A DNA stretch of 64,000 nt from Pseudobutyrivibrio ruminis (GTDB lineage: Bacteria; Bacillota; Clostridia; Lachnospirales; Lachnospiraceae). This document shows, piece after piece, positions 8,593 to 55,578 of this stretch. The stretch covers positions 62,001 through 126,000 of the forward strand of contig SVER01000006.1 of assembly GCA_015057315.1 (NCBI GenBank), read 5' to 3'. Below the pieces are notes generated by a model. The model made no database searches, was not told the DNA's origin, and saw only the letters and a program-made list of their open reading frames with translations. How positions within the stretch are numbered: position 1 is the stretch's first letter; each line of letters begins with the position of its first letter. The position numbers and the translations under genes are program-made.

Positions 8593-11500
8593 TTATGGTT
8601 CTGGGTCTGGTTGAGTAGTAGTTTTCCATGTAGCTGTAATAGTTACATTTATGGTATCAGCTGATACATCACTTAATGTTGTTGTGTTTAACTTTACTGT
8701 AGTAGCTGCTACTGCTTCTTCAGCTTCGCCAACCTTAACTGTCCATCCTGCAAATTCCTTATCTGTTAATGTAGGATTATTTAAAGTAACTTCCCCATCA
8801 GATATCTTCCATGTTGTAGGATTTGTTTTTCCTGCATCAAGAGCACCACCTGCTAACACATAAGTAATGTTATAAGTAACTTCCTTCCACTGAGCTGTAA
8901 GTTCAACAGTTGTATCATCCTTTAATGTACCAGGATTATAAACAGCTTTATCTGCATAAGTCTTTGCTGCTCCAGTAACTTCCTTATTATCTACTTTAGT
9001 TACTTTCCAACCATCAAACTTATAACCAGCCTTTTTAATTGTAGTATTCTCAGTAAGAGTTGTAGTTGTGTCACCAGTATAAATTACTTGGTCAGCAAGC
9101 GCTCCTGTTGCACCTGTTCCTGCTACATACTTAATTGTAACCTTTTTATTCTCTTCCCATTTAGCAGTGTAAGTTGTAGCTTTAGTTAACTCCTTAGCAC
9201 CAATCGATGTTACAACAACTGCATCTTCTGCTGCAGCTGCGTTTTCATCACCTTTTACCCAACCTTTAAATGTGTAGTTATCACGTGTAGGGATAGGTAA
9301 TGTTGTTGCAGTACCATAAGTATGCTTTATTATTCTTGAAGTTGTAACATCTGCTTCCTCGCCTTCAATCTTGGCAAGCTTTCCACCGTTAACTGCAAGA
9401 GTAACTGCAACCTCTTTAGCCTTCCACTGTGCCTTAACTGTTACATCTGTAGCTGCAGCTGCATCTGCTGCTGTATTTACTGCGATTTCTGTTACTTTAT
9501 TTTTGTCTGGATTCTTTTCATCATAAGTTCCATTGTACCATCCAACAAAGTCGTAACCAGTTCTTGTTGGATTTTCTTCCAGTTTTAATGATTTAGTAAC
9601 GTTATAAGTAAATACCTTTCTTGTTCCATCTTCATAAAGCCAGCTAGCATTCTCTGTATTTGTAGCACCATTCAAATCATAATTAACAATATAATTATGC
9701 TCTTTCCACATTGCTGTAATTGTAACTGCCCTATCTGTAGTGCCAACACCATCATTTCTAGCTTCAAACTTATCTTTATAATTTCCTGATAGTTCACCAT
9801 CAGCTGCCCAGCTTGCGAAATCATAATTCTTCTTTGTGAATGAATTAGTTATGTTAGCTGCTCCACCTGGATAGATTGTGACTGTCTGATCAGGCTGATT
9901 TGCATCGGCTCCCTCGCCTGGCTTTAATGTAATTACTAAGTTAGACTTATTCTCTTCCCAAACAGGTCTAACCTTTACATTCTTAGCTGTATCAGCTGGA
10001 AGCTTTCCACCTGCAAGTTCTGTAGCCTTGCTACCTTCTACGAGTTCCCACTTAGTGAATGAATAACCAAACTTAGTTAATACAGTATTATTTGGTAATG
10101 TTGTAGTAGCTGCGGTAGCCTTTGTAAATGTAGTTGGATATGTAGAAGATACAAACTTTCCACCATCTAATACATAAGTGATTGTGTACTTCTTATCTGC
10201 CCATACAGATGTAAGAGCTACTGCAGAATCTGAAGCAAATGCCTGCTGTGTTCCACCCTTGTATACTGTATCGCCGTTCTTCCATCCTACAAATACCTTC
10301 TCTTCATTTGCTGCTACAAGCTTTGGTAAAGTAACCTTCTTTCCAGCATCAACCTTTGTTGAAGCTACAAACTTTGAAGGATCCTTTAATGTTTCAGCAT
10401 TTGTAAAGTTAATAGTAACTTCTTTTGCCTTCCATGCAGCTGTTAAAGTGACATCTGCTGCAGTATCCTTTGGAATTGAATATGCCTTCTTTCCTGTTTC
10501 TGCCTTCTGTCCCTTAATTTCAACCTTCCAGCCTTCAAATGTATATCCAGCCTTGATTGGATCTGCAATAACCTTTGCTGCTGCAAGTGGTCCAGCGAAT
10601 GTCTCTGCCTTTGTATCAACATTCTTGTAAGTAATCTTGTAAGTGATTGGTGTCCAAACAGCCTTTAATGTAACAGCTGTTCCTGTTGTAACATTAACAA
10701 CCTGAGCCTTATCCTTGAATACTGGATTTGTTCCTGCTGCGGTTATATCCCAACCTGCAAACTTATGGCCAGCCTTAACAAATGGGTTAGCCTGCAGTGC
10801 CTTCTTAGCACCAATTGCTATCTTCTGTGTTACGGCTGCACTTTCTTTAGCCTTTGTTCCACCATTAGCATCAAATGTAATAGTGTACTCGCTTGGTGCT
10901 ACATACTTAGCATATAATGTCTTTGTTTCACCAGGAGCGATGTCTGCATCATATAGTGCATTTCCAATAGGTGTAGCTACAGCCTGAGTGCATGCTGCAT
11001 CTGTGAACCATCCTGCAAATGCATACTTAGTTGTTGTCTTTCCTTCCTTCTTAGATACTGTAAATCCACTTGTTGGAAGTGACTTAAATGTAGAAGTCTT
11101 GCTTGTCATAGCTGCTGTCTTACCAGTAACTGTAGCACCAGTTGGCACTACACCAACTGCAAACTCAACGCGGTAATCCATAGACTTCTTGTCAATCTTA
11201 AAGTTAAATGTCTTTGTTCCACCATATTCACCTGAAAGTGCAATTGTAACCTTTGCAGTTCCTGGCTTTTCGTTATTTGTTACACTGACAACCTTGTACT
11301 GTTCTGTTGTAAGGACATGTGGTGTCTTTACTGTCTTACCCTTAGCATCCTTAGTTGTATCTGTTCCAAGAGTAATATCGAAATCAGTTCCTGCCTCTAG
11401 TGTAACTGGCGAACCTTCATAAACCTTCTTTGTCTTCTGAACTAATTTAGCATTAGTTGCAAGATTTGCTGATAATACATACTTGTAATCTACATTTATA

Positions 11501-40181: not shown

Positions 40182-40377
40182 TTTACCACTATAAAACAGA
40201 TTCTTCTATATTCAGTGGTAATTTCTGTGTATCTTTACCACTGTAAAACAGATTCTTCCATATTCAGTGGTAATTTCTGAGTATCTTTACCACTGTAAAT
40301 CGGCTTCTTCCATATTCAGTGGTAATTTGGGGTAATCTTTACCACTGTAAATCAGCTTCTTCCATATTCAGTGGTAA
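40182..40377. repeat. Four-unit 52-bp tandem repeat with internal dyad
   Basis: Units start at 40182, 40234, 40286 and 40338, exactly 52 bp apart. Each runs TTTACCACT(G/A)TAAA..C, then (G)CTTCTTCCATATTCAGTGGTAAT and a short linker TTCTGTGTATC or similar. TTACCACTG and CAGTGGTAA in each unit form a stem of 9 bp. The last unit stops 3 bases before the folC stop codon. Units are about 85-95 percent identical; there are no unique spacers, so this is not CRISPR. The rest of the gap (40065-40181) shows nothing. Confidence 0.92.
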
Positions 40378-44157: not shown

Positions 44158-44243
44158 CACGCAGTTTCGAACTATCATAAAAATGCACTCAGGCATTGCC
44201 CCAATGTCATTAAGTTAACATTGCGGTGGAGGCTACGATGAAG

Positions 44244-44280
44244 AAAACGAGATTGAAGTGATATGCTTCAATCTCGTTTT
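44244..44280. terminator. Bidirectional terminator at the 3' end of the IS
   Basis: AAAACGAGATTGAAG and CTTCAATCTCGTTTT form a 15-bp perfect stem with a 7-nt loop, with T-runs on both strands. Confidence 0.9.
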
Positions 44281-44349
44281 TTCCTTTTTTAGACATTAAA
44301 AGAAGACAGATTGTATATCTGCCTAAATAACATTTTTAACTTTTCATTT

Positions 44350-45665
44350 TTATGCTACTCTATATAAGAAACCTCTAAAGATTCTTGCTGACTGGTATCT
44401 TTCACGATGTCGGTCTGGTCTAATGGGTACAAGATTTCTTGATATGATGGTTTCTAAATCAGGTGGAGATGTAATACCGCGGTAAAACTTTTTGCACATG
44501 TGAGCAGCAACTGAAAAGTTGGCTTTATATGTATATTTTCTTTGTTTTTTCTTAATGACTACGTGCGAGGTAATCATTTCTGCAAAATTATACATTATCA
44601 AATGTGCATATAATTCCTGCTGTATGCATTCCACTTTTTTGTGTGAAAATCAAGCATTCCCATGGTATATTTCAAATCCCTAAATGATGTTTCTATTCCC
44701 CATCTTAAAGCATACAGTTTCTTTATTTTTTCTGGTGGATACTTATTATTAGGAAGATTAGTTATAATTGTTTCATATGAACCCTCAGAAAGTGGGAATC
44801 TTACAATTCTAAATGAGAGTTTATAAAACTTGGTTGGTTCACCTTTTCTATTTTTATTTGGAAGATAATCAAAAATCGCATTGTTTGGAATCAATCTATA
44901 ATGATTTTTATCTTTTAATAATTCCTTCACTTTATTAGTTTGCTTCCGAGTGAGGTTAAGTTCGAAACCGATATCATAAGAATCCTCATTTGGTAGTGAC
45001 AAACCCTGTTTAATTCCACATTTACCATCTTTAATTCGAAACAAAAAATACCATCCTTTTTCTTGAATATGAGCTAGGTTGTTGTAACTTTCATATCCTC
45101 TGTCTGCCATTAAAAGAGCACTATCTAGCAAAGAACGATCAACCATCTCGACAAGAGCAAGATGCTCATTAGCATACTTTGATTTCTGAATAATTGCATC
45201 CTGATATATTTGATGCTGGAGATTATATAGAGCATTTAGGTGCAGGAGATTGTAAGGCTTTTGACCATTTGTGCCAGGCAAATAGGAATCCACATCATCT
45301 GGATTCGTTGGAATTTGAATTTTTGAACCATCTATTGCAAGTATAGGTAATTGATCATCAAAAGAATCACATAGTTTTTTTGAAAAAAGACGAAATATCG
45401 CCTCAAAAGCCTCTACTGTTATTTTACTTCGTTGCTGGCAAAAAGCAGACGCAGTTGGTGTTTCAGAACTATCATTAAATAAATCTAGCAATTCATTTGT
45501 AAGACTACCGCTTCCCATACCAATAATTCCTGTAATGACTTTTTCCATAGACAATTTTCTTTTCCGTGAGAAATTTCTTTCAGAATCAATACAGAAAGAT
45601 TTTGCATTATCTGCAATTGTTTTAATTTGTGACATCAAAAGTTTCTTTACCATTTGTGGTTTCAT
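44350..45665 (-). CDS. IS4-family transposase, expressed by -1 frameshift
   Basis: ATG at 45665 behind GGGAGG. The zero frame gives 355 residues and holds the DDE parts: AIDGSKI, ALLMADRGYES and the IS4 signature Y-(2)-R-(3)-E-(6)-K in YALRWGIETSFRDLK. After FHTKK the zero frame soon stops, while the -1 frame continues with VECIQQELYAHLIMYNF and 94 residues of typical transposase C-terminus. The shift point is A_AAA_AAG (44640-44634), in the correct phase. A -1 slip gives 438 residues, the normal IS4 length. TGCATA / TATGCA could form a small stem 5 nt downstream. A simple one-base deletion is the alternative. Confidence 0.82.
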
Positions 45666-45707
45666 GTGCGCCTCCCTGAAATTTGTAAATATACTTACAA
45701 TTTCAAG

Positions 45708-45752
45708 GGCCGCTTTCGCTACCTCTGAAAATAATCAGTAGCGAAAGCGGCC
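45708..45752 (-). promoter_or_regulatory. Strong hairpin in transposase leader
   Basis: GGCCGCTTTCGCTAC and GTAGCGAAAGCGGCC form a 15-bp perfect stem with a 15-nt loop, about 45 nt before the transposase start. It could limit translation of read-through transcripts, as known for other IS elements. Confidence 0.6.
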
Positions 45753-45796
45753 GCACTTTTCTGCATTAATGTCAACCCTTTATAGAAAAAAGACCC

Positions 45797-45816
45797 CTGC
45801 ATCATTCCTGATGCAG
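45797..45816 (-). terminator. Terminator inside the upstream end of the IS
   Basis: CTGCATCA / TGATGCAG, 8-bp stem, followed on the minus strand by GGGGTCTTTTTTC. It would stop transcription entering the transposase gene from outside. Confidence 0.7.
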
Positions 45817-45904
45817 AGATCTTTATACATCCCTCTTAACTTAATGACATTGGGCATTGCCCGAGTGCATTTTTTTATGACCACCCACAATAAGTTTACT
45901 TAAA

Positions 45905-45923
45905 AATACTAAGAAACTTAGTA
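45905..45923 (-). terminator. Terminator of the RiPP-type operon
   Basis: ATACTAAG / CTTAGTAT with 3-nt loop, followed on the minus strand by TTTTTAAG. Lies 26 nt after the ABC exporter stop. Confidence 0.65.
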
Positions 45924-45948
45924 TATTCACTGAATATGGCCCCGTAAA

Positions 45949-47574
45949 CTATAAAATATCATTAATGATTAAATGCTTATCCATAATCTTACATTCTTTA
46001 TTGCATAAATACCTGTATTCTTGCGAATGTGAAATAAGGATAATAATTCTTCCGTTGAATTTATCTCTTATATAGGTCATTATATCTTTTCCAGTTTCAA
46101 AATCAATTGAGTTAAAAGATTCATCTAAAATCAACACATCTGGATCCATCAATATTGTTCTAGCTAAAATTATTTTTTGAGCATCTCCACCCGAAATGTT
46201 AGCACGGTTTTCTTGTATTTCAGTATCTAAGCCTAAATCTATTATCTTATCCATAAACGGTTCTGCGTATAAGTTATCTAAAACATCATCCGAGTAGTGC
46301 TCTCCTAAAGTGATATTATTAATTATAGAGGTTGGTAGTAATTCTGTTTTTTGTGAAATGTACAATATTTTTTTTCTTACATCCTCATTGTTTATATCTT
46401 TTATATCATAATTATTAATCTTTACTCCATCATTTAGATTTAATTTCGCAATCATTTTTGCAATTGTTGATTTTCCACGCCCAGATTCGCCTGTAAGAAA
46501 AACGATATCCCCAACATCAAATTTTGCAAAGACATCGGCAAGTAAAATATTATCTTCATAACCAATACTTTTAGATTCTATTGTTATTTCATTTACATGC
46601 TCGATACGTACATTACCATTTGATTCTACGTTATATCTTAAATCTATATCTACAAAATCTAGTGCACCAGCTAGTTCTCGCATATCGATTTGTAGATTAA
46701 GCATATCACTAAGTGACGAATAGTACATATCATTAATCAACATCAAAAATGCCAAATCACCAAAAGAAATAATTTTTGTTCCAAAATATAAAACAATAAT
46801 AATGTATGATGCATTTTTTAAGGTAGATGCAATAAAATCCAAAATCACACACACATCCATTGCATATTGATTTCCTTTTTTTTCAGCATTTAATACACAA
46901 TCAAAGTTATTTACTATTAAATCTTTGATTCCCTTCTTATCTGCTAATTGCTTCATATTTTCTGGGCTTGAAACTATTACTTTTAGATTCTTCTTACAAA
47001 TAGCTCTCTTTGTTTGCAAATCTTTGCTTAGCAGAGTTAACCTCGATTTTTCTCCGTTCAAGAGTTTTTTGAACCCTATATATTGCAATGGTATTTGAAT
47101 TAAATAAAAAATAAATAATGTTTTATTAATTGTGAATATTAAGCATAGTGCAGTAATGCTTATTATCACTGAAACTAATAAACCAGTTAAAGAAGCAGAA
47201 AAAAAATTAAATACAGTTTGAACAGTATTTTCAATTCGTTCCATTATATATGTCGGTTCCTTATCTTGAATCGCGTCATAATTCATGTGAAAGAATTCAT
47301 TGTATAGCTTTTGAAATTCATTTTTTTTAAATTTTAATCCAAACCAAAATTTAAATCTATTTTGCATGAATTTAAATAGGTATAAGCCAAATAATACACA
47401 TGCATATTTAAATAATGTCTTTAAAATGCTTGTACTATTATAAATATCATTTAATCCATTTTTTAATATTACTGGTCCAGCAATTGATAAAACACATACA
47501 GCGAGCAAAAGTACTATATTGATAAATAATTCTTTATGATATTGCTTTAAAAGTTCAATAGAATATTTTTTCAT
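45949..47574 (-). CDS. ABC exporter, membrane domain fused to ATPase
   Basis: 541 residues. An N-terminal transmembrane domain (about 1-310, six helices) is followed by an ATPase domain with Walker A TGESGRGKST, signature ISGGDAQK and Walker B DVLILDESF, and the switch His in ISHSQEYRY. Half-transporter; would work as a dimer. There is no N-terminal C39 peptidase domain, so it does not cut the double-glycine leader of the precursor itself. It follows the SPASM fragment by 3 nt and is the export gene of the RiPP-type cluster. Very AT-rich codon use. Confidence 0.87.
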   Translation of the reverse strand: MKKYSIELLKQYHKELFINIVLLLAVCVLSIAGPVILKNGLNDIYNSTSILKTLFKYACVLFGLYLFKFMQNRFKFWFGLKFKKNEFQKLYNEFFHMNYDAIQDKEPTYIMERIENTVQTVFNFFSASLTGLLVSVIISITALCLIFTINKTLFIFYLIQIPLQYIGFKKLLNGEKSRLTLLSKDLQTKRAICKKNLKVIVSSPENMKQLADKKGIKDLIVNNFDCVLNAEKKGNQYAMDVCVILDFIASTLKNASYIIIVLYFGTKIISFGDLAFLMLINDMYYSSLSDMLNLQIDMRELAGALDFVDIDLRYNVESNGNVRIEHVNEITIESKSIGYEDNILLADVFAKFDVGDIVFLTGESGRGKSTIAKMIAKLNLNDGVKINNYDIKDINNEDVRKKILYISQKTELLPTSIINNITLGEHYSDDVLDNLYAEPFMDKIIDLGLDTEIQENRANISGGDAQKIILARTILMDPDVLILDESFNSIDFETGKDIMTYIRDKFNGRIIILISHSQEYRYLCNKECKIMDKHLIINDIL

Positions 47575-47577
47575 TTT

Positions 47578-48819
47578 TTATCTCTCTTCAAAGTTTATTG
47601 TTTCCAAATAATGTTTAGATTCCAATTTAGCGTATTTACAATAATCTTCGTCCATAGACAACATATCTCCAGTTTTATTATAGCAAACAGCTTTACATGG
47701 TCCACCACATATGTATTTATAGCTACATGATACACAATGTGAATCAGTTGTTACATCATTATCCATGAACAATTTTGTTATTTTATTTTTTTCAATTTTT
47801 TCAAACCATTGTGAATCAAAAATATTTCCCAAACAGTACACATCGTTTATCATAGCTTGACAAGGGAAAATATTACCATCGGAGTTAATTGCAATAACTT
47901 CGTAGCATGCGTTACATTTTGCAATTTTAAAATATGCATCAAATGAATGTTTTGACATTTGCAATTAACTAGTAGGGTACATACATTTCTCATTCCTTTT
48001 TGTAGGTTGCAGCGGAAGAGGATCAACCGAATGAAAGCCTTGAGAAATAAAAAACTCTTTAAAATCTGCATATAAATTTTCATTCTCGCAGCTAACAACA
48101 GGTTTAATAGTAATCTTCTTTCTATATTTATCTTCATATGACATAATATTATTCAAGATATTAAATGATTTCGAGTTCTTTCTTGTTTTAGCATTTTCGA
48201 TTTCATCAATAGCATCCAAACTAATGTCAATATGATATGCAGCCTCTACTATTTTACTATCAATTTTAATTGTAGAATTTGTCATCAGATGAACTTTAAA
48301 ATCATTTTTATTTGCAAATAAAACTAACTCACTTATATCATTTCGAAGCATTATTTCACCACCGGTAAATACCAAGTAATCAAATCCATGTTCCTTCAAC
48401 GATATTATTATTTCTTTCCATTGTTTTGTAGTTAGCTCTCGTGTTTTTCCAATGTTATCTTTATCATAACAATATGTACAATTAAGATTACATCTTTGGG
48501 TCAAATGAATATAGGCTTTATGTGGAATAAACTTTCTATAATTCTGGTATATGTTTTTAAAATCAGCTTTTTTATAATTATCAAATGAATCAAATAAAAT
48601 CTCGTTAAGCAACAATAACCTAAGTAATTCTTTCATGTCCGGGTCAACATTGCAATCTTCACCATCATGCGCCTCTAATCTAGTAATTAGTTTTGAAAAT
48701 AAATCAACCCCCCTATTATCTAGGCCAAATATTTTATTCAAATATGTACTATAAATTATATTTAAACCCTCATTGTTTTTTAACATCAAAAATTTTTCAT
48801 CAAACCCATATATTTTCAT
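47578..48819 (-). pseudogene. Radical SAM/SPASM peptide maturase interrupted by in-frame TAA
   Basis: One frame of 414 codons with a single TAA at 47967-47965. The first part (284 residues, ATG at 48819) has a winged-helix-like N-terminus (possible precursor-binding RRE, about 5-80) and the radical SAM motif C110-x3-C114-x2-C117 in CNLNCTYCYD, then FTGGEIML. The second part (128 residues) is a SPASM domain: KCNACYEVIAINSDGNIFPCQ, then CVSCSYKYICGGPCKAVC and a final C, enough Cys for two auxiliary Fe-S clusters. The next start after the stop (TTG, then ATG) has no ribosome binding site. So it is a nonsense mutation, a read-through case or a sequence error. The ATG overlaps the precursor stop (ATGA). 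Confidence 0.85.
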
Positions 48820-48986
48820 GCTGCTATGTTTTCCTCTCTCATTAAAGGAACTCCAGCTTTCGCTGGAGTTCCTTCAGTTTTCATATAAGCAGTGCCACCA
48901 AAACTCCCCGCACTACCACCACATGATGCCTGAATCTCTTGAGTATTCATTTCAGGCATAAAAAATTGAAATTTCTTTTCTTCCAT
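48816..48986 (-). CDS. RiPP-type precursor peptide with double-glycine leader
   Basis: 56 residues, ATG at 48986, 7 nt after GAGGAGG. The leader MEEKKFQFFMPE is followed by MNTQEIQASCGG, which fits the double-glycine leader pattern (M at -12, E at -8, I at -7, GG at -2/-1). The core would be 32 residues: SAGSFGGTAYMKTEGT, then PAKAGVPLMREENIAA. The core has no Cys; the only Cys is at -3 of the leader. The stop overlaps the radical SAM start (ATGA), proof of coupling. The modification cannot be predicted. Too short for usual gene calling. If GG is not a cleavage site, the Cys could be part of the core. Confidence 0.8.
   Translation of the reverse strand: MEEKKFQFFMPEMNTQEIQASCGGSAGSFGGTAYMKTEGTPAKAGVPLMREENIAA
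48847..48872 (-). repeat. GNRA-loop hairpin inside the precursor coding region
   Basis: On the minus strand GGAACTCCAGC-GAAA-GCTGGAGTTCC, an 11-bp perfect stem (13 with flanking A-T pairs) closed by a GAAA tetraloop, in the last third of the precursor gene. It could damp transcription or stabilise the 5' part of the mRNA, raising precursor over maturase. Confidence 0.85.
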
Positions 48987-49000
48987 AAAACAACCTCCTC

Positions 49001-49095
49001 AAAAAATAACTGCTACACTGCTGTAATCGACGGAGAAAATCTGATTGTTCTTGAGTTCTTCGCCGTCGGTGATTTACCGTCAGCAGTTATTTTTT
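49001..49095 (-). promoter_or_regulatory. Structured leader of the RiPP-type operon
   Basis: AAAAAATAACTGCT and AGCAGTTATTTTTT (14 bp perfect) enclose an inner stem CGACGG / CCGTCG. The minus-strand 3' arm ends in TTTTTT and is followed at once by GAGGAGG, the precursor ribosome site. A second CTGCTG (49018-49023) can pair with CAGCAG (49081-49086) instead, so two structures exclude each other. Attenuator or riboswitch-like control is inferred. Confidence 0.6.
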
Positions 49096-49564
49096 GTGCT
49101 GTCAAGGGTGGCGTCCGGCTACCTCAACCTATATATCTGCAATTTTCAAGGTTCATCTGAGCCTATTTTTTATACCCAGTTTTTTCATAGATCATTTGAC
49201 ACTATCAACATATAGGCTACTAACATACTACTTGAATATTTAATCACAAATGTATGTCTTTTTCTTGTATGAATTGTGAATTATTCCACGTTTCCAAAGG
49301 CTTCACGTAATCCATTACTGTTCTGGAATACTAAATCCAATTCTAAAAGTTCGCAATCGTTGTATACTTAATGGCATTTATCCGCTTAACAACCACCTGA
49401 AAAAATGCGTTCTTTGAGAACTTTGTAGAAATCCACTTAACTTTTTCCAGAAGGCGATAAGTGGATTTGGGACATTTCTGAAACCCGCTTAACATTTAGC
49501 AGATACATCCCACCCACAGGATTTATTATCTAAATATACTTCAGTATGACACTACTAAGAAAAG
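49096..49564. other. Gene-free stretch with degenerate 52-bp repeat
   Basis: No gene. CCGCTTAAC-type blocks at 49382, 49433 and 49485 (51-52 bp apart) and a dyad ATCCACTT / AAGTGGAT (49431-49475 region) resemble in layout the 52-bp array at 40182. Confidence 0.5.
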
Positions 49565-49595
49565 ACCTATTTGGCATTTATCACCAAATAGGTCT
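49565..49595 (-). terminator. Terminator of the carbohydrate operon
   Basis: GACCTATTTGG and CCAAATAGGTC form an 11-bp stem with 9-nt loop; on the minus strand TTTTCTT follows. Lies just after the stop at 49603. Confidence 0.9.
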
Positions 49596-49602
49596 TTATA
49601 TA

Positions 49603-52600
49603 TTACTTATTACCCTTTTTCAATACTTTTGTAAAAACTACATATCCGCCACTTACAAGAATTAGTGCCAGTGCAATGAGTATTAATATCAGAATTGCAT
49701 TACTATCTTTTTTCTCGCCTGTAGTAGGTGTTTCTTCATCAGATATGATTTCTTCTGATTGCTCATTATTCTCTTCTAATGTGTTCTCAGCCGAATCTTC
49801 AAATGTAGAATCTTCACTATTTTCTAATTTCTCATCTACACTGCTTTCAGCTTTGGACTTTTGCTTAGAGCTATTAGCTGCCTTTACCTTATCAGTTGTT
49901 TTAGCAACTTTATTGTTTCCAGCAGCAGGCACCTTAGGAGTATCAATTACTGTGATGTCCTTTGCTGGGCTTACAGCTTTGTTTACCTCATGATTAACTG
50001 GTGTGGTACCTGTGCTTCCACCTTGCGATGGCTTAAAAGGATTAACTGGATTAATGATAGGCTCCTTTGTTTTGTCTTCTTTTATCTTGCCCTTTGTCAA
50101 TTCATCTGTAAGCTTAACATATCCGCAGAAGCCGCCTGTCATGTCAATAAAGCTTACTCCATCCACTGCTGCAAATACAGGATTTGGATTGTAGCTGTAG
50201 TTTGAATCGTAACCAGTATCATTGATATCCTTTACTAATCTAGCTTTTTTATCAAGGGACTTTTCAGTGAAATCATATTCGCAAAGCTTTTCTGGAAGCG
50301 CCTCAGCCTTTGACACTTTAATCTTGATATCATCAGATGATGAAAGTTCTCCATCTGAGACTGTAAGTGTAAGCACATAGTTACCAGCTTGATTAAAGCT
50401 TACATCAGTGATTGCCTGATTATCCTTGTCTATAGCTACTGCTGCAATGTTTGGCTTGCTCTTTACTGTCCACTTGTATTCTAATGAAGAATTAGGATAT
50501 CCATCATCAATAGCGGATGCTTTTAGTCTTGTAGTTGCAACAGCTCCTAAAAGTAAGTTTGTTCCTGTAGCTTCTTCTAATTCTGTCAGCTTTTCCTCTG
50601 GCACTACTTCATCTGTTGTAACTTTCAGCTTAGAATCCTCTGCTGTGACAGATTCAACTTCATCTATGTTTTCCTCTGTTGTTTCAGCATCTTTTTCAGT
50701 AGCTTCTTCTGCAGGTACTTTACTAGCTTCTTCGATATCAGAGTCTTTCTCTTCTTTCTTTTCTTCTGACTTCACATCCTTTTCTAGCGGTTTTTCCACA
50801 TCTTCCTTTTCTAGCTTTTCAAGCTCTTCTTCCACTGGCTCACCGCCTAGAACTGCCCATTCAATTACACCTACACCAGAATTATTAGCTTCCTTTTTAT
50901 TTAGCTGAATTCTTAATCCATCAGTCATAACTGGCTTGAAGGATGTTACATTATACTTATCCGCTTCCAGACCAAAGCCCGATGCATCCTTTACTTCTTT
51001 CCAATCATCCCCATCCTTGTAGCTGATAGTATAATTCTTAGGGAATTGAATTCCCACTACTTCCTCAGAATCATTATCCTTCCAGAAGTAAATAGCTGAT
51101 TTGCTAATGCTTATCTTTTTATCCCAGGTGTATGTAATAGTCTCGTATTCTGATGTGTTGCCCCATGAGCCATAAGCACCAGTAGCTGGCTTTTCCATGG
51201 ATGCTGAGGATGACACGCCATCATTTACTGCACCTAATGTTTCCCAGCTAGAAACATAGCTTGTTGAAACTGAAGCATCTAAAGCCAGATTAGTATCCAT
51301 ATCCAGGGAATTAACTGCACTATTAAGTCTGTCGGCCATCTCATCTAATTCTTTTTGAGACACACCCGTCTTTGCAACCAATTCCTTAGCCTCTGCCAAA
51401 ACAGATTTCATATCAGAATATCCTGATTTAACAAAGAATGAATCAACCTTTTCAGCTCTTGAAATAGCACTATTTAATCCAGACTTATCAACAGCGCCTT
51501 CCATAAATCCATATACTTTCCACTCAATTACACCACAACCTAATGTCTTAGGATTGATGGTCATTCTAAGAGATGTGGTCTGTATTGGCTTGATTGTGGT
51601 TTTGTTGTATTTATCCAGCTCTGTTCCAAGGCCTTCCACTATCTCGCATTCCTTCCACTGGCCACCTTCAAGGTACTCTAGCTTAACAGCTGCTGGTGAG
51701 AAATTACCACCATTATCCTTGAAGAAATATGCATCCTGACCTGTGATGATAACCTCATCATCCCATGTGTATGTCACCCATGCTGGTGCGCCCTGTGCTC
51801 CACCTAGCCAGTTGTGCCATACACCATGGGATGTATCATTTGAAGCTGATGGGTCATAACCATCATTTAAACCAGCTACACCACCTAAATCCTGTGGTGT
51901 GTCAACAATAGCTGTTGGAGTAGCATAAGCTGCAAGATTTACCTCTTTACCGTCAACTACAACAACATTAGCTTTGGCCTTAACAGTAGATTTAGCTACT
52001 GAACCTTCTACAGCAAACACACCCTTGGAGCTATAAGCTTCTGCCGAAACCTCATCCCATTTTACTTCCACATTTCTGTAAACACCATCAGAATATAAGG
52101 CACTAACTTCTTTTGGTAAAGCTGGTGCTTCGTTTATCTTAGTAACAACTGCTGCATCCTTAATCGATACAATTTCTCTATCCTTCAAATCTCCAAAAAG
52201 CTTTGAAACCTCTTCTTCATCAAATGCTTTTGAATACATACTAAAGCCTTTAATTTTTCCATTTAAGAAGCTAATAGATTCCTCGTGAGAGCGTCCCAGA
52301 TAGTTTCTTTGAGCCTCTCCTAAATCTGAAAATACAAAGCCTGAATCTAATGTAGCAATCTTATCTCCATCAAGGTAAGCAGCAATATTTCCATTATCAT
52401 TTGTTAATACTAATTTCTTATCATATTCTGGTGCTATCGCATATACGGTATCCACTGTTTTCAGCTTCTTTGACTTCATGTCAGTAGCAGCAATGCTTAA
52501 CTGATTATTTCCTTTGAAGCTCACATACAAGTAGTTTTCATCTAAATCACCAAATTCGATAAGTCTTGTTCCATTCTCCTGATTTGCAGAAAGATTGAAG

Positions 52601-55578
52601 TCAATGACTATTGTAGCCTCATCTATTCCATCTACCTCCGGAAGATATGTTTCAATATCATTACCTGCATCTACAATTGGAGCTGTGTTTTTTGCAGCTG
52701 CTCCAATCTTAAATTCAACCTCTGATGTATCTTTCTTTCCAAGAGGAACAGAAACTGTCACAGTCTGATTCTTTGCTGCCTTAAATGTTCCATGAGCTTT
52801 ACCATCAACCAGGATTGTGTAGCTGCCATCTGCAAGTCCTGTTAAATCAATGCTTGTATTATGCGCTGTTTTTTCAAGATTTGTTACAGTAAGCTTTACA
52901 TCACTGCAATCCTTAGCAATTATCGCATTTACGTATCTGTCCCTATCTAGCTCTACATAGCAACCATCATCTATCAGGTTTAATCTGGTGTTCAATCCAT
53001 CAAGTGGTTTTATAGAATAACTATCTCCATTATCAACCACATTACAGCCGTATCCAAATAAACCAAACACTGGATCTGTAGCAACATCTGCAGATAAAAT
53101 CTGAAGTGCTCCAAAGAGACCCAAATCTGCCTCACCAGCCATCTGTCTCCAGCCGTTGTGAATCTTTCCGCCTCCAGTTCCTTGACCGCCTAGATTTCCC
53201 ATTTCACTTTGATAAGTCCAGGCAACTGTTCCTATATTCTCAGGGTCAGCATCTATCTGACCTGAATTGATGCATGTAAGGTTTGCCAGCTTTGCAGCAT
53301 AATTAACTCTTTCTGCCTCGGCAGATTCTACTGAATTTAATCCATTATTTTCAAGTCGCAAATAATCATCCATGCAGTATCCTGCAAGTGCTGCTGTATA
53401 CTGGAAGTTCCACCAGCTTTCGCCACAGATAGTGGTAGGATTAGCGTAGTGATACCACACTGGCTGAAGTCCTCTACATGCCCTTGTTTTCAAATCAATC
53501 TTTTGCATCATGCTTAGGGCATTAGCTTCATCACTTCCAAGATTTAGCTTAGCAAGGGTATATACAGCTTCCTCACCTGTATTATCATAAGAATACTCTG
53601 AGCCATAAGGATACTTGGTGCTAGAGAAATTCTTATACTTTCTTGCCATAATATCTTCAATCTCAGCAGCCTCATCGGTATATCCTTCTGCCTTTAAAGA
53701 GGCGATAATGTCAGGTGTAGTAAGCTCGCCCATTACACCTGTTGACCAGTTATAATACACCCCGTCTGTGTAAAGAGCCTTCATTATGTTGTATGCTCTA
53801 AGTAGATAGGTATCTTTATCTTCAATATACTCTACAATGTCAGGATATTTGCTGGCAATCTTGTACATTGAATAATAGGTGTTGTAGATGTGAGGATATG
53901 CATAGCCACGGTATGTAGGAGTATCATTTGGCTCCTTCATTTGGAAATCGTGGATAAGGTAATCCTCCTGATGCTCCTGCATAAGTCCATGCCATATAGC
54001 AGTATCCAAATACTCATCAATTGCAGTTATTTCCTTTTCTACTGGGATGTAAACATTCTTTTCAGCAATATATTCACCGTGGGTTAATCCCCAATCATCG
54101 CCCCAGCCCCAATAGCCATTGAAAACACCGCGCTTTGATTTGGTATCCATCATCCAATCGTCAAATACCTTATCATAAAGCTCGCCTTCGGCATCCCACT
54201 GGGTCTTATCTACCATAAACTGTGAATGAGTATTCAATGCATTGCTTACATCATCCATGATATAGAACTGCAGCTCAGTTTCCTTTGTTCCATTGTCATA
54301 GGAAACCACTACATCGTTTTGTCCTAAATCATCAAAGGCTATATCGTATATATGATACTGTTCCCCATCGATTAGCTTTGTAGATTCATACTTTACATAA
54401 GTGCCAGTTTCTGATTTTTCGCATGGCAAATTATTGCTGACACTATTCTTATTGTCATCAAATAAATTCAGCTCATGAGGACATTTAACACTTACCTTCA
54501 AGTCCTTGGCATCATATTTCGTATGAAGATACATTTTGGCTGGCATGTTCTTAGCAAAGGTCATGCCTGGAACAGCCACTGCATCTATTATTCCCTCTTC
54601 ATAAAGGGTAGATTTCATATCCTCTTCATTATCAACTGGACTAAAATCGAATGAATACTTTTTAGACTCACCCTTCTTCAATTCTAATGCTGTATTATCA
54701 AGATATCCTCGATTAGTTTTCTTAATAGCATCTGAATGAATGTAGAAAACATTCAGTCCACTGGCCCATCCATCCTGATCCTGACACCATGATTTTTCGT
54801 TAGCTGCTCTTTCCTCAACTCTCCAGTGATCCTGATACTCAAAGCTGGCATCTGTTGCGTCATCTGGAGTAAGTAATACATACTGCCCCTGCCCACTAGG
54901 GCGTGTAGCATATATATATGAAGAATTCTTTCCCACAAAGCTGTGGTCTACAACTCTTGTCTCGTAGATTTCATCTCCACCAGACCAATATTCGTTAAAT
55001 GTAATAGGTAGACCTAAATCTCCTACTGTAAGAACTTCATCGCTCTTGTTTTCTATTTCAATGTCCCACTTTATCCTGTCATTAACAAGAGTATAGGTTT
55101 CCTTAACCTGATAGCCTTTTATTCCTTTGGCTTCAGTTGCGTTCCCGCCGTATGTAACTATTACCTTGTTATCTTTAAGTTCGATGGTTCTATCCGAGTC
55201 AGACTGGCTTGTGTATCCTTCCCTATATTCACCATCAGAAAATTTAGTTGCAAACATCAGCTCACCCATCCATTGGTGGGTGCTGCTAGCCCCCTGAGCA
55301 GGAGCATTTTCTTCGTTCATCACATAGTTTGTAGGATATTTATCTCCCACTATATACAGCTTTCTAATCTGGCCGTATTTTCCTATGTTTACAGAGAAAT
55401 AATCATTGGATAATGTATAGCTTCCATCTGCTTCCTCTGTCGTCTTTGTTTGACTTGTTGCCTTATCTTCTTTAGCCAATACATCAATTGTCCCCATACT
55501 ACCTGGCAAAGTTGTAAATGCTGTAATTGTAGCCAGTGCAAGCGACAGAACCTTCTTCTTCATTCTCGTGTTTGACAT
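49603..55578 (-). CDS. Wall-anchored multidomain glycan-active protein (DUF5695-like)
   Basis: 1991 residues, signal peptide (about 1-35). A large N-terminal region (about 50-940) looks like DUF5695: beta-rich start, then an (alpha/alpha) barrel-like part with WGWGDDWGLTHGEYIAEK and GYAYPHIYNTYYSMYKIA, probably a glycosidase. Then a LamG-like domain (about 965-1110), a Big_4-like domain (about 1150-1205), two discoidin-like carbohydrate-binding modules (about 1212-1355 and 1434-1560; each ends GVIEWxVxG), a FIVAR-like helix bundle between them (about 1365-1430), an acidic linker (about 1580-1660) and an Ig/PKD-like domain (about 1675-1765). The C-terminus is a sorting signal: TPTTGE at about 1951, a hydrophobic helix and KKGNK. 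It should act outside the cell, supplying oligosaccharide to the importer and GH127 enzyme encoded upstream. Catalytic residues not identified. Confidence 0.78.
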   Translation of the reverse strand: MSNTRMKKKVLSLALATITAFTTLPGSMGTIDVLAKEDKATSQTKTTEEADGSYTLSNDYFSVNIGKYGQIRKLYIVGDKYPTNYVMNEENAPAQGASSTHQWMGELMFATKFSDGEYREGYTSQSDSDRTIELKDNKVIVTYGGNATEAKGIKGYQVKETYTLVNDRIKWDIEIENKSDEVLTVGDLGLPITFNEYWSGGDEIYETRVVDHSFVGKNSSYIYATRPSGQGQYVLLTPDDATDASFEYQDHWRVEERAANEKSWCQDQDGWASGLNVFYIHSDAIKKTNRGYLDNTALELKKGESKKYSFDFSPVDNEEDMKSTLYEEGIIDAVAVPGMTFAKNMPAKMYLHTKYDAKDLKVSVKCPHELNLFDDNKNSVSNNLPCEKSETGTYVKYESTKLIDGEQYHIYDIAFDDLGQNDVVVSYDNGTKETELQFYIMDDVSNALNTHSQFMVDKTQWDAEGELYDKVFDDWMMDTKSKRGVFNGYWGWGDDWGLTHGEYIAEKNVYIPVEKEITAIDEYLDTAIWHGLMQEHQEDYLIHDFQMKEPNDTPTYRGYAYPHIYNTYYSMYKIASKYPDIVEYIEDKDTYLLRAYNIMKALYTDGVYYNWSTGVMGELTTPDIIASLKAEGYTDEAAEIEDIMARKYKNFSSTKYPYGSEYSYDNTGEEAVYTLAKLNLGSDEANALSMMQKIDLKTRACRGLQPVWYHYANPTTICGESWWNFQYTAALAGYCMDDYLRLENNGLNSVESAEAERVNYAAKLANLTCINSGQIDADPENIGTVAWTYQSEMGNLGGQGTGGGKIHNGWRQMAGEADLGLFGALQILSADVATDPVFGLFGYGCNVVDNGDSYSIKPLDGLNTRLNLIDDGCYVELDRDRYVNAIIAKDCSDVKLTVTNLEKTAHNTSIDLTGLADGSYTILVDGKAHGTFKAAKNQTVTVSVPLGKKDTSEVEFKIGAAAKNTAPIVDAGNDIETYLPEVDGIDEATIVIDFNLSANQENGTRLIEFGDLDENYLYVSFKGNNQLSIAATDMKSKKLKTVDTVYAIAPEYDKKLVLTNDNGNIAAYLDGDKIATLDSGFVFSDLGEAQRNYLGRSHEESISFLNGKIKGFSMYSKAFDEEEVSKLFGDLKDREIVSIKDAAVVTKINEAPALPKEVSALYSDGVYRNVEVKWDEVSAEAYSSKGVFAVEGSVAKSTVKAKANVVVVDGKEVNLAAYATPTAIVDTPQDLGGVAGLNDGYDPSASNDTSHGVWHNWLGGAQGAPAWVTYTWDDEVIITGQDAYFFKDNGGNFSPAAVKLEYLEGGQWKECEIVEGLGTELDKYNKTTIKPIQTTSLRMTINPKTLGCGVIEWKVYGFMEGAVDKSGLNSAISRAEKVDSFFVKSGYSDMKSVLAEAKELVAKTGVSQKELDEMADRLNSAVNSLDMDTNLALDASVSTSYVSSWETLGAVNDGVSSSASMEKPATGAYGSWGNTSEYETITYTWDKKISISKSAIYFWKDNDSEEVVGIQFPKNYTISYKDGDDWKEVKDASGFGLEADKYNVTSFKPVMTDGLRIQLNKKEANNSGVGVIEWAVLGGEPVEEELEKLEKEDVEKPLEKDVKSEEKKEEKDSDIEEASKVPAEEATEKDAETTEENIDEVESVTAEDSKLKVTTDEVVPEEKLTELEEATGTNLLLGAVATTRLKASAIDDGYPNSSLEYKWTVKSKPNIAAVAIDKDNQAITDVSFNQAGNYVLTLTVSDGELSSSDDIKIKVSKAEALPEKLCEYDFTEKSLDKKARLVKDINDTGYDSNYSYNPNPVFAAVDGVSFIDMTGGFCGYVKLTDELTKGKIKEDKTKEPIINPVNPFKPSQGGSTGTTPVNHEVNKAVSPAKDITVIDTPKVPAAGNNKVAKTTDKVKAANSSKQKSKAESSVDEKLENSEDSTFEDSAENTLEENNEQSEEIISDEETPTTGEKKDSNAILILILIALALILVSGGYVVFTKVLKKGNK

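Follow-up and report, generated by a model that had tools for sequence, protein, structure and literature searches.

The window, as we call the whole 64,000-nucleotide stretch of Pseudobutyrivibrio ruminis DNA that was analysed (on contig 30 of genome G000), contains a RiPP cluster in which a short precursor gene, a radical SAM/SPASM maturase gene and an ABC exporter gene lie on the same strand, with an insertion at each end:

44202..45852 (-): IS4-family element, with the transposase in two overlapping frames, inserted 3' of the exporter into the loop of the hairpin that terminates the operon; absent in both sister species
45949..47574 (-): ABC exporter, 541 aa, with membrane and ATPase domains and without a C39 peptidase match
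47578..48819 (-): radical SAM/SPASM maturase, a single gene with an in-frame TAA at 47967-47965; the family-invariant cysteines are retained in the family alignment
48816..48986 (-): precursor gene, 56 aa, with a leader at about residues 1-20, a probable core from Cys22 (SCGGSAGSFGGTAYM) and a C-terminal extension, all boundaries putative
48845..48874 (-): perfect hairpin (13-bp stem, loop of 4 bases) within the 3' portion of the precursor frame
49004..49206 (-): IS fragment of 203 bp, which corresponds to an end of a multicopy insertion sequence and adjoins the precursor Shine-Dalgarno site on its upstream side; absent in both sister species

Precursor gene and exporter

An initial annotation of this DNA had described a radical SAM/SPASM RiPP cluster with an ABC exporter lacking C39, and the 541-aa exporter without a C39 match agrees with that description. 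Likewise, the short gene with a ribosome site was recovered as a 56-aa ORF at 48816-48986 (-), with a GAGGAGG Shine-Dalgarno site 5' of it and a stop codon that overlaps the radical SAM start at 48819 as ATGA. The peptide had rightly been called overlooked, since no curated model catches it (0 NCBIfam and 0 Pfam matches). Moreover, the precursor frame is kept in both sister species (records L019 and L020, identical over the fetched stretch to genomes G419 and G406), with 98% identity in L019 (one residue change) and 96% in L020 (two). The annotation had also proposed that a frame absent from orthologous loci, or equal rates of synonymous and non-synonymous change, would speak against a gene. 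On the first point the frame is present in both sisters; on the second, each pair differs by 1-2 synonymous and 1-3 non-synonymous changes, numbers too small to reveal selection, and dN/dS therefore cannot decide whether the frame is coding, the precursor dS against the window copy (0.03-0.06 in the sisters) being based on one or two changes. We conclude that the short precursor gene is real. A precursor search of 397 family genomes, a sample outside which both sister genomes fall, matched the window alone.

The stop codon in the maturase and the insertions at the cluster ends

The maturase gene comprises 414 codons including the terminal stop, and the in-frame TAA is codon 285, between the radical SAM and SPASM domains. 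Past the TAA, the maturase frame continues through the SPASM domain to 47578, in a sequence nearly identical to that of the sisters, whose maturases are uninterrupted and 413 aa long in both L019 and L020. The Pfam Radical_SAM and SPASM models score above their cut-offs in two separate frames in the window and in one protein in L019, and the CxxxCxxC and SPASM cysteines align as those of one enzyme, present as one protein in L019; the window genome has no open maturase reading frame. What had been annotated as a radical SAM gene followed by a separate SPASM sequence is thus one gene cut by a TAA and open in both sisters, and the cluster, which had been treated as working, has an interrupted maturase in the window genome.

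The possibility that the maturase is split and not broken, its halves being made by termination-reinitiation at TAA-TTG-CAA-ATG and working together, draws on the TTG directly after the TAA and on the in-frame ATG two codons on. We consider it highly improbable, as no ribosome site was seen for the second frame before the SPASM half, and the maturase is a single open frame in both sisters and in six distant relatives. The TAA may alternatively be a consensus error of the assembly, with the cluster functional in this strain, and the finding of a single in-frame stop with the remaining frame undamaged fits such an error; this seems quite unlikely to us, since the cluster has also received an independent insertion at either end, a further sign of decay, even if expression could survive each of them.

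Among the three carriers, these two insertions occur in the window only. The 203-bp fragment matches, at 93% identity, an end of an insertion sequence of which genome G423 has five copies; these copies have 1.7 kb in common at 100% identity, including a 433-aa frame whose best match, below cut-off, is an IS6 transposase model. The fragment brings its own strong hairpin. At the other end, the IS4-family element has a 10-bp GGGCAATGCC target duplication, read by eye. Further downstream, a 52-bp tandem repeat was observed (3.8 copies, 40182-40377), and by eye a similar unit stands beside an IS end in contig C89.

In the window genome, the TAA would leave the translated enzyme without its SPASM domain, and the IS fragment separates the upstream region from the precursor, so that the modified peptide is probably not made. 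Judged from its sequence, the cluster appears inactive or nearly so in this strain, and the sisters supply two natural intact copies.

Core position, leader processing and likely chemistry

Six distant Clostridia loci (L021-L026, 29-34% identity) were among the 80 loci kept from one scan of GTDB species genomes. Intact precursors stand beside the maturase in five of them, and their cores combine Cys, often as CxC, with a Gly-rich tail, as in CACACGSKVGHGSGAMIS (L025), CSCGCGGAGAGEGA (L023) and CSCTGSCGCGDGSGRGQGSGK (L022), all from small genes upstream of the maturase. The small-ORF criterion, set after inspection, was passed by 9 of the 530 ORFs of the six loci, five of these lying directly upstream of the maturase; both L024 precursors fail it. 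In Anaerococcus porci (L026, 5440-5628), a precursor frame of the same style as its relatives and with an indistinct start reads ELEACQCLCGLQA, then TGA, then SGSGGGGG, beside an open maturase frame, a YcaO gene, an S41 peptidase and an exporter; it is either another decayed precursor or a draft error.

The precursor search was extended to 10 further distant maturases in each of two overlapping lists, and yielded L047/L048 and GG-leader peptides in L051, L054 and L059, with no clear precursor candidate seen beside the other maturases of those two lists. The Prevotella precursor (L047 1138-1350; L048 5354-5566, with the same core) combines a GG leader with a CGCGCGC Gly-rich core, and in L047 its neighbours are a related maturase, an outer-membrane beta-barrel protein and a C39 exporter. 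Prevotella corporis L047 resembles the window in its related maturase, and its core, ACGCGCGCAGGAGNGSGAGR, is in the style of L023; it differs in its GG leader and C39 exporter, and in belonging to the Bacteroidota. In L047 the GG lies about 30 residues ahead of the first Cys of the CxC (CxCxC) Gly-rich core, and in L051 the GG-leader peptide has a different, Cys-containing core; both exporters carry C39. In a tree of 30 maturases, L019-L026 alone are not one clade, since L047 and L051 fall among them, the resulting group of ten having support of 92/98, just under the starred level.

When ten precursors were aligned (L026 and L047 left out), the invariant columns were one Cys and one Gly only. 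Cys22, conserved in the window, L019 and L020, is the one Cys column common to all ten. The window precursor had no BLASTP match to L025, and in comparisons with the eight distant precursors its score was reached by 7 to 395 of 2000 shuffles; because pairwise similarity is this weak, the argument on the core rests on position and composition. The relatives' Cys/Gly C-terminal stretch is taken as the modified part, which places the GG after Cys22 within the core, and the C39-less exporter fits Cys22-Gly-Gly as a core start. From these comparisons, Cys22-Gly-Gly looks like the start of the core and not like a double-glycine cleavage site. The double-glycine leader of the initial annotation is therefore not supported, the residue shared by the relatives being the Cys that opens a Gly-rich C-terminal stretch, and the GG of L047 lying well before its core; the Cys-free core depended on a cut after GG that the relatives do not support. 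As the core probably keeps Cys22, the statement that thioethers are unlikely should probably be reversed, which corrects the predicted chemistry of a RiPP cluster that no curated model covers.

We weighed against this the reading in which the cut falls after Gly24, made by a C39 exporter encoded elsewhere in the genome, and leaves a Cys-free core with a C-C, cyclophane or epimerised modification. The genome does encode two C39 matches on other contigs, in frames of 741 and 734 aa, so that GG cleavage in trans is possible; the peptide has hydrophobic residues at -7, -12 and -15 relative to the GG, as double-glycine leaders do (pattern as given in the accessible part of PMC10885120), and Phe29 and Tyr34 would be available for modification. 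Nevertheless, position -4 holds Ser in the window and Ala in L020, no C39 match was obtained for the cluster exporter of the window, L019 or L020, and Cys22 is kept in all three species. Furthermore, four of the eight distant precursors (L047 counted) have no F, Y, W or H past the first Cys, and a fifth has His only, which argues against a shared aromatic crosslink. We therefore regard cleavage after Gly24 as unlikely, and retain Cys22 as the probable core start.

Regarding leader removal, the window cluster has neither S41 nor C39, and the genome has two matches of each elsewhere. An S41 peptidase occurs in the maturase gene run in three of the six distant Clostridia loci, adjoining the maturase in L023 and L025 and lying behind the YcaO gene in L026, and such enzymes are candidate leader proteases. 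The exporters of L022, L023, L025 and L026 have no C39 match; no exporter was found close to the maturase in L021 and L024, the latter having two ABC-2 membrane proteins more than 3 kb from the maturase on the opposite strand. In the accessible part of a review on RiPP leader proteases (PMC10885120), the terms "S41 family", "S41 protease" and "S41 peptidase" occur 0 times and bare "S41" occurs 15 times, at least partly in DOIs.

RNA folding adds a further element to the layout. All six distant loci have a folded element in the gap that separates the last precursor from the maturase, and the hairpin inside the precursor frame of the window is also present in both sisters. For the window and the six distant hairpin regions, which were picked after inspection, the number of shuffles (of 300) that fold equally well is 0 to 3. 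Good folding was also seen in two of the seven upstream controls, a set without L026 (the window with its IS fragment, 0/300 shuffles, and L022, 3/300). We tentatively propose, as a possibility that we doubt more than we trust, a RiPP subfamily with its own layout: a Cys/Gly-core precursor, an RNA hairpin and a radical SAM/SPASM maturase, with an S41-type peptidase and a C39-less exporter replacing double-glycine processing in some members, and with the hairpin captured inside the precursor frame in Pseudobutyrivibrio, giving a translated C-terminal extension and a core reduced to a single Cys.

With respect to known systems, the best NCBIfam match is StsB, the thioether-forming streptosactin maturase, for five of the seven maturases scanned (L019, L021, L022, L024 and L025), with scores of 85-115 bits against a cut-off of 625 bits, and another model is best for L023 and L026; among the matches listed, none of the seven reaches the cut-off of a curated maturase family. 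L019 itself scores 93.1 bits with NF045574 (StsB), and in the ranthipeptide comparison it reaches 67.2 of 340 bits for PapB and 52.4 of 425 bits for the SCIFF maturase. For the precursor model NF045558 (StsA, cut-off 42 bits), the window and L020 precursors have no match, and both L025 precursors match below cut-off (23.8 and 23.3 bits; E 3e-5 and 4e-5); the model's only match in the window genome lies elsewhere, at 13.8 bits. In 398 phylum genomes the StsA model gave no match at E 0.001, and no control genome matched either. Among curated models, the cluster is thus nearest to streptosactin and far below the cut-offs.

Streptosactin (GGG subfamily; StsA/GggA, StsB/GggB) resembles the window cluster in pairing a radical SAM/SPASM maturase with a short precursor whose Gly-rich core contains Cys. 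Its bridges are Cys25-Ser28 and Cys31-Gly34 (PMC8172795, consulted in part, where another passage prints Cys15 for the first Cys), an i+3 spacing that is also that of Cys22-Ser25 in the window peptide. It differs in having two Cys and in coming from streptococci, whereas the window peptide has one Cys and comes from gut Clostridia. An uncharacterised streptococcal "CGG" subfamily also appears in the accessible part of a review (PMC13361665). Since neither Ser nor Gly occurs at position i+3 from the Cys in L021 and L024, an i+3 thioether is a hypothesis for the window peptide and not a family rule.

The best solved relative of the family profile is 5wgg, labelled only "Radical SAM domain protein", which we take to be CteB, a thioether enzyme. 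This likeness to the SCIFF/CteB ranthipeptide system goes along with clear differences: the window has no SCIFF precursor match, the maturase is far below the SCIFF cut-off, and the SCIFF core contains six Cys, unlike the window core. The family profile also aligns from position 8 to 5v1q, presumably SuiB with its N-terminal recognition domain, which suggests such a domain in the maturase. In an intact copy, the N-terminal region of the maturase would bind the N-terminal leader of the precursor, and the enzyme would modify the Cys/Gly-rich C-terminal core, most likely through a Cys thioether (Cys22-Gly-Gly-Ser25); a separate peptidase would then remove the leader and the C39-less ABC protein would export the product. 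The most likely product of the intact copies is a thioether (sactipeptide-like) peptide, which would link gut Clostridia to streptosactin-like chemistry. Overall, the cluster is of an ordinary kind and belongs to a radical SAM/SPASM subfamily for which no curated model exists.

Site history and distribution

At E 1e-15, the maturase matches four of the 29 genus genomes: the window genome, the two sisters at 99-100% without the stop, and one at 28%. The exporter has the same length in L019, L020 and the window. Identity over the cluster is 99.6% to L019 and 98.6% to L020, and the flanks are mostly 92-96% identical; they depart from this in the adjoining 494 bp upstream, where identity to L019 is 98.2%, and in some short segments with 88-91%. 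Alignment to L019 stays at high identity beyond the precursor, up to about 49600. In the same comparison with the window, dS is 0.006-0.048 for maturase and exporter and 0.07-0.13 for two flanking genes. Moreover, a third species (G418) has an empty site, where the two flanking genes stand side by side without the cluster. Because cluster identity exceeds flank identity and this site is empty in G418, we conclude that the cluster moved recently. An iron-type alcohol dehydrogenase gene occupies the same site in G421, and L020 holds both this gene (8999-10174) and the cluster (L102 is the record for the same chromosomal site), which makes the site an insertion hotspot.

Taken as a whole, the account that we favour, with moderate confidence, is that of a recently moved, decaying RiPP cassette, the intact form of which makes a Cys/Gly-core thioether peptide with a separate leader peptidase; one cassette would thus have been gained, and be decaying, at a single site within a group of sister species.

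Few genomes of the family have the maturase, which gave matches in 3 of 397 at E 1e-20, window genome included; among 391 class genomes, the maturase profile at E 1e-60 found the window genome and one other (the L026 record). The plasmid and phage search returned no record covering 80% of P0001 or L019. For the L025 maturase, two plasmid records have at least 80% coverage at 24-27% identity, and in viral contigs the top-ranked match covers part of the protein at 23% identity. Rfam gave four matches from three families on 45700-49700, all below the gathering score and taken as chance. In the open-access literature, nothing was found on this cluster, on radical SAM RiPPs in Pseudobutyrivibrio or on radical SAM precursors with an S41 peptidase; a Hungate1000 bacteriocin paper reports Pseudobutyrivibrio with nisin variants, and the accessible part of its main text contains "radical" 0 times (PMC13289728).

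Next to the cluster, 49603-55578 (-) encodes a 1991-aa surface-type protein with DUF5695, Big_4 and laminin-G-like domains and, by eye, an anchor-like end, which is the neighbour of the insertion site in all three carriers and likewise in G418, where the site is empty.
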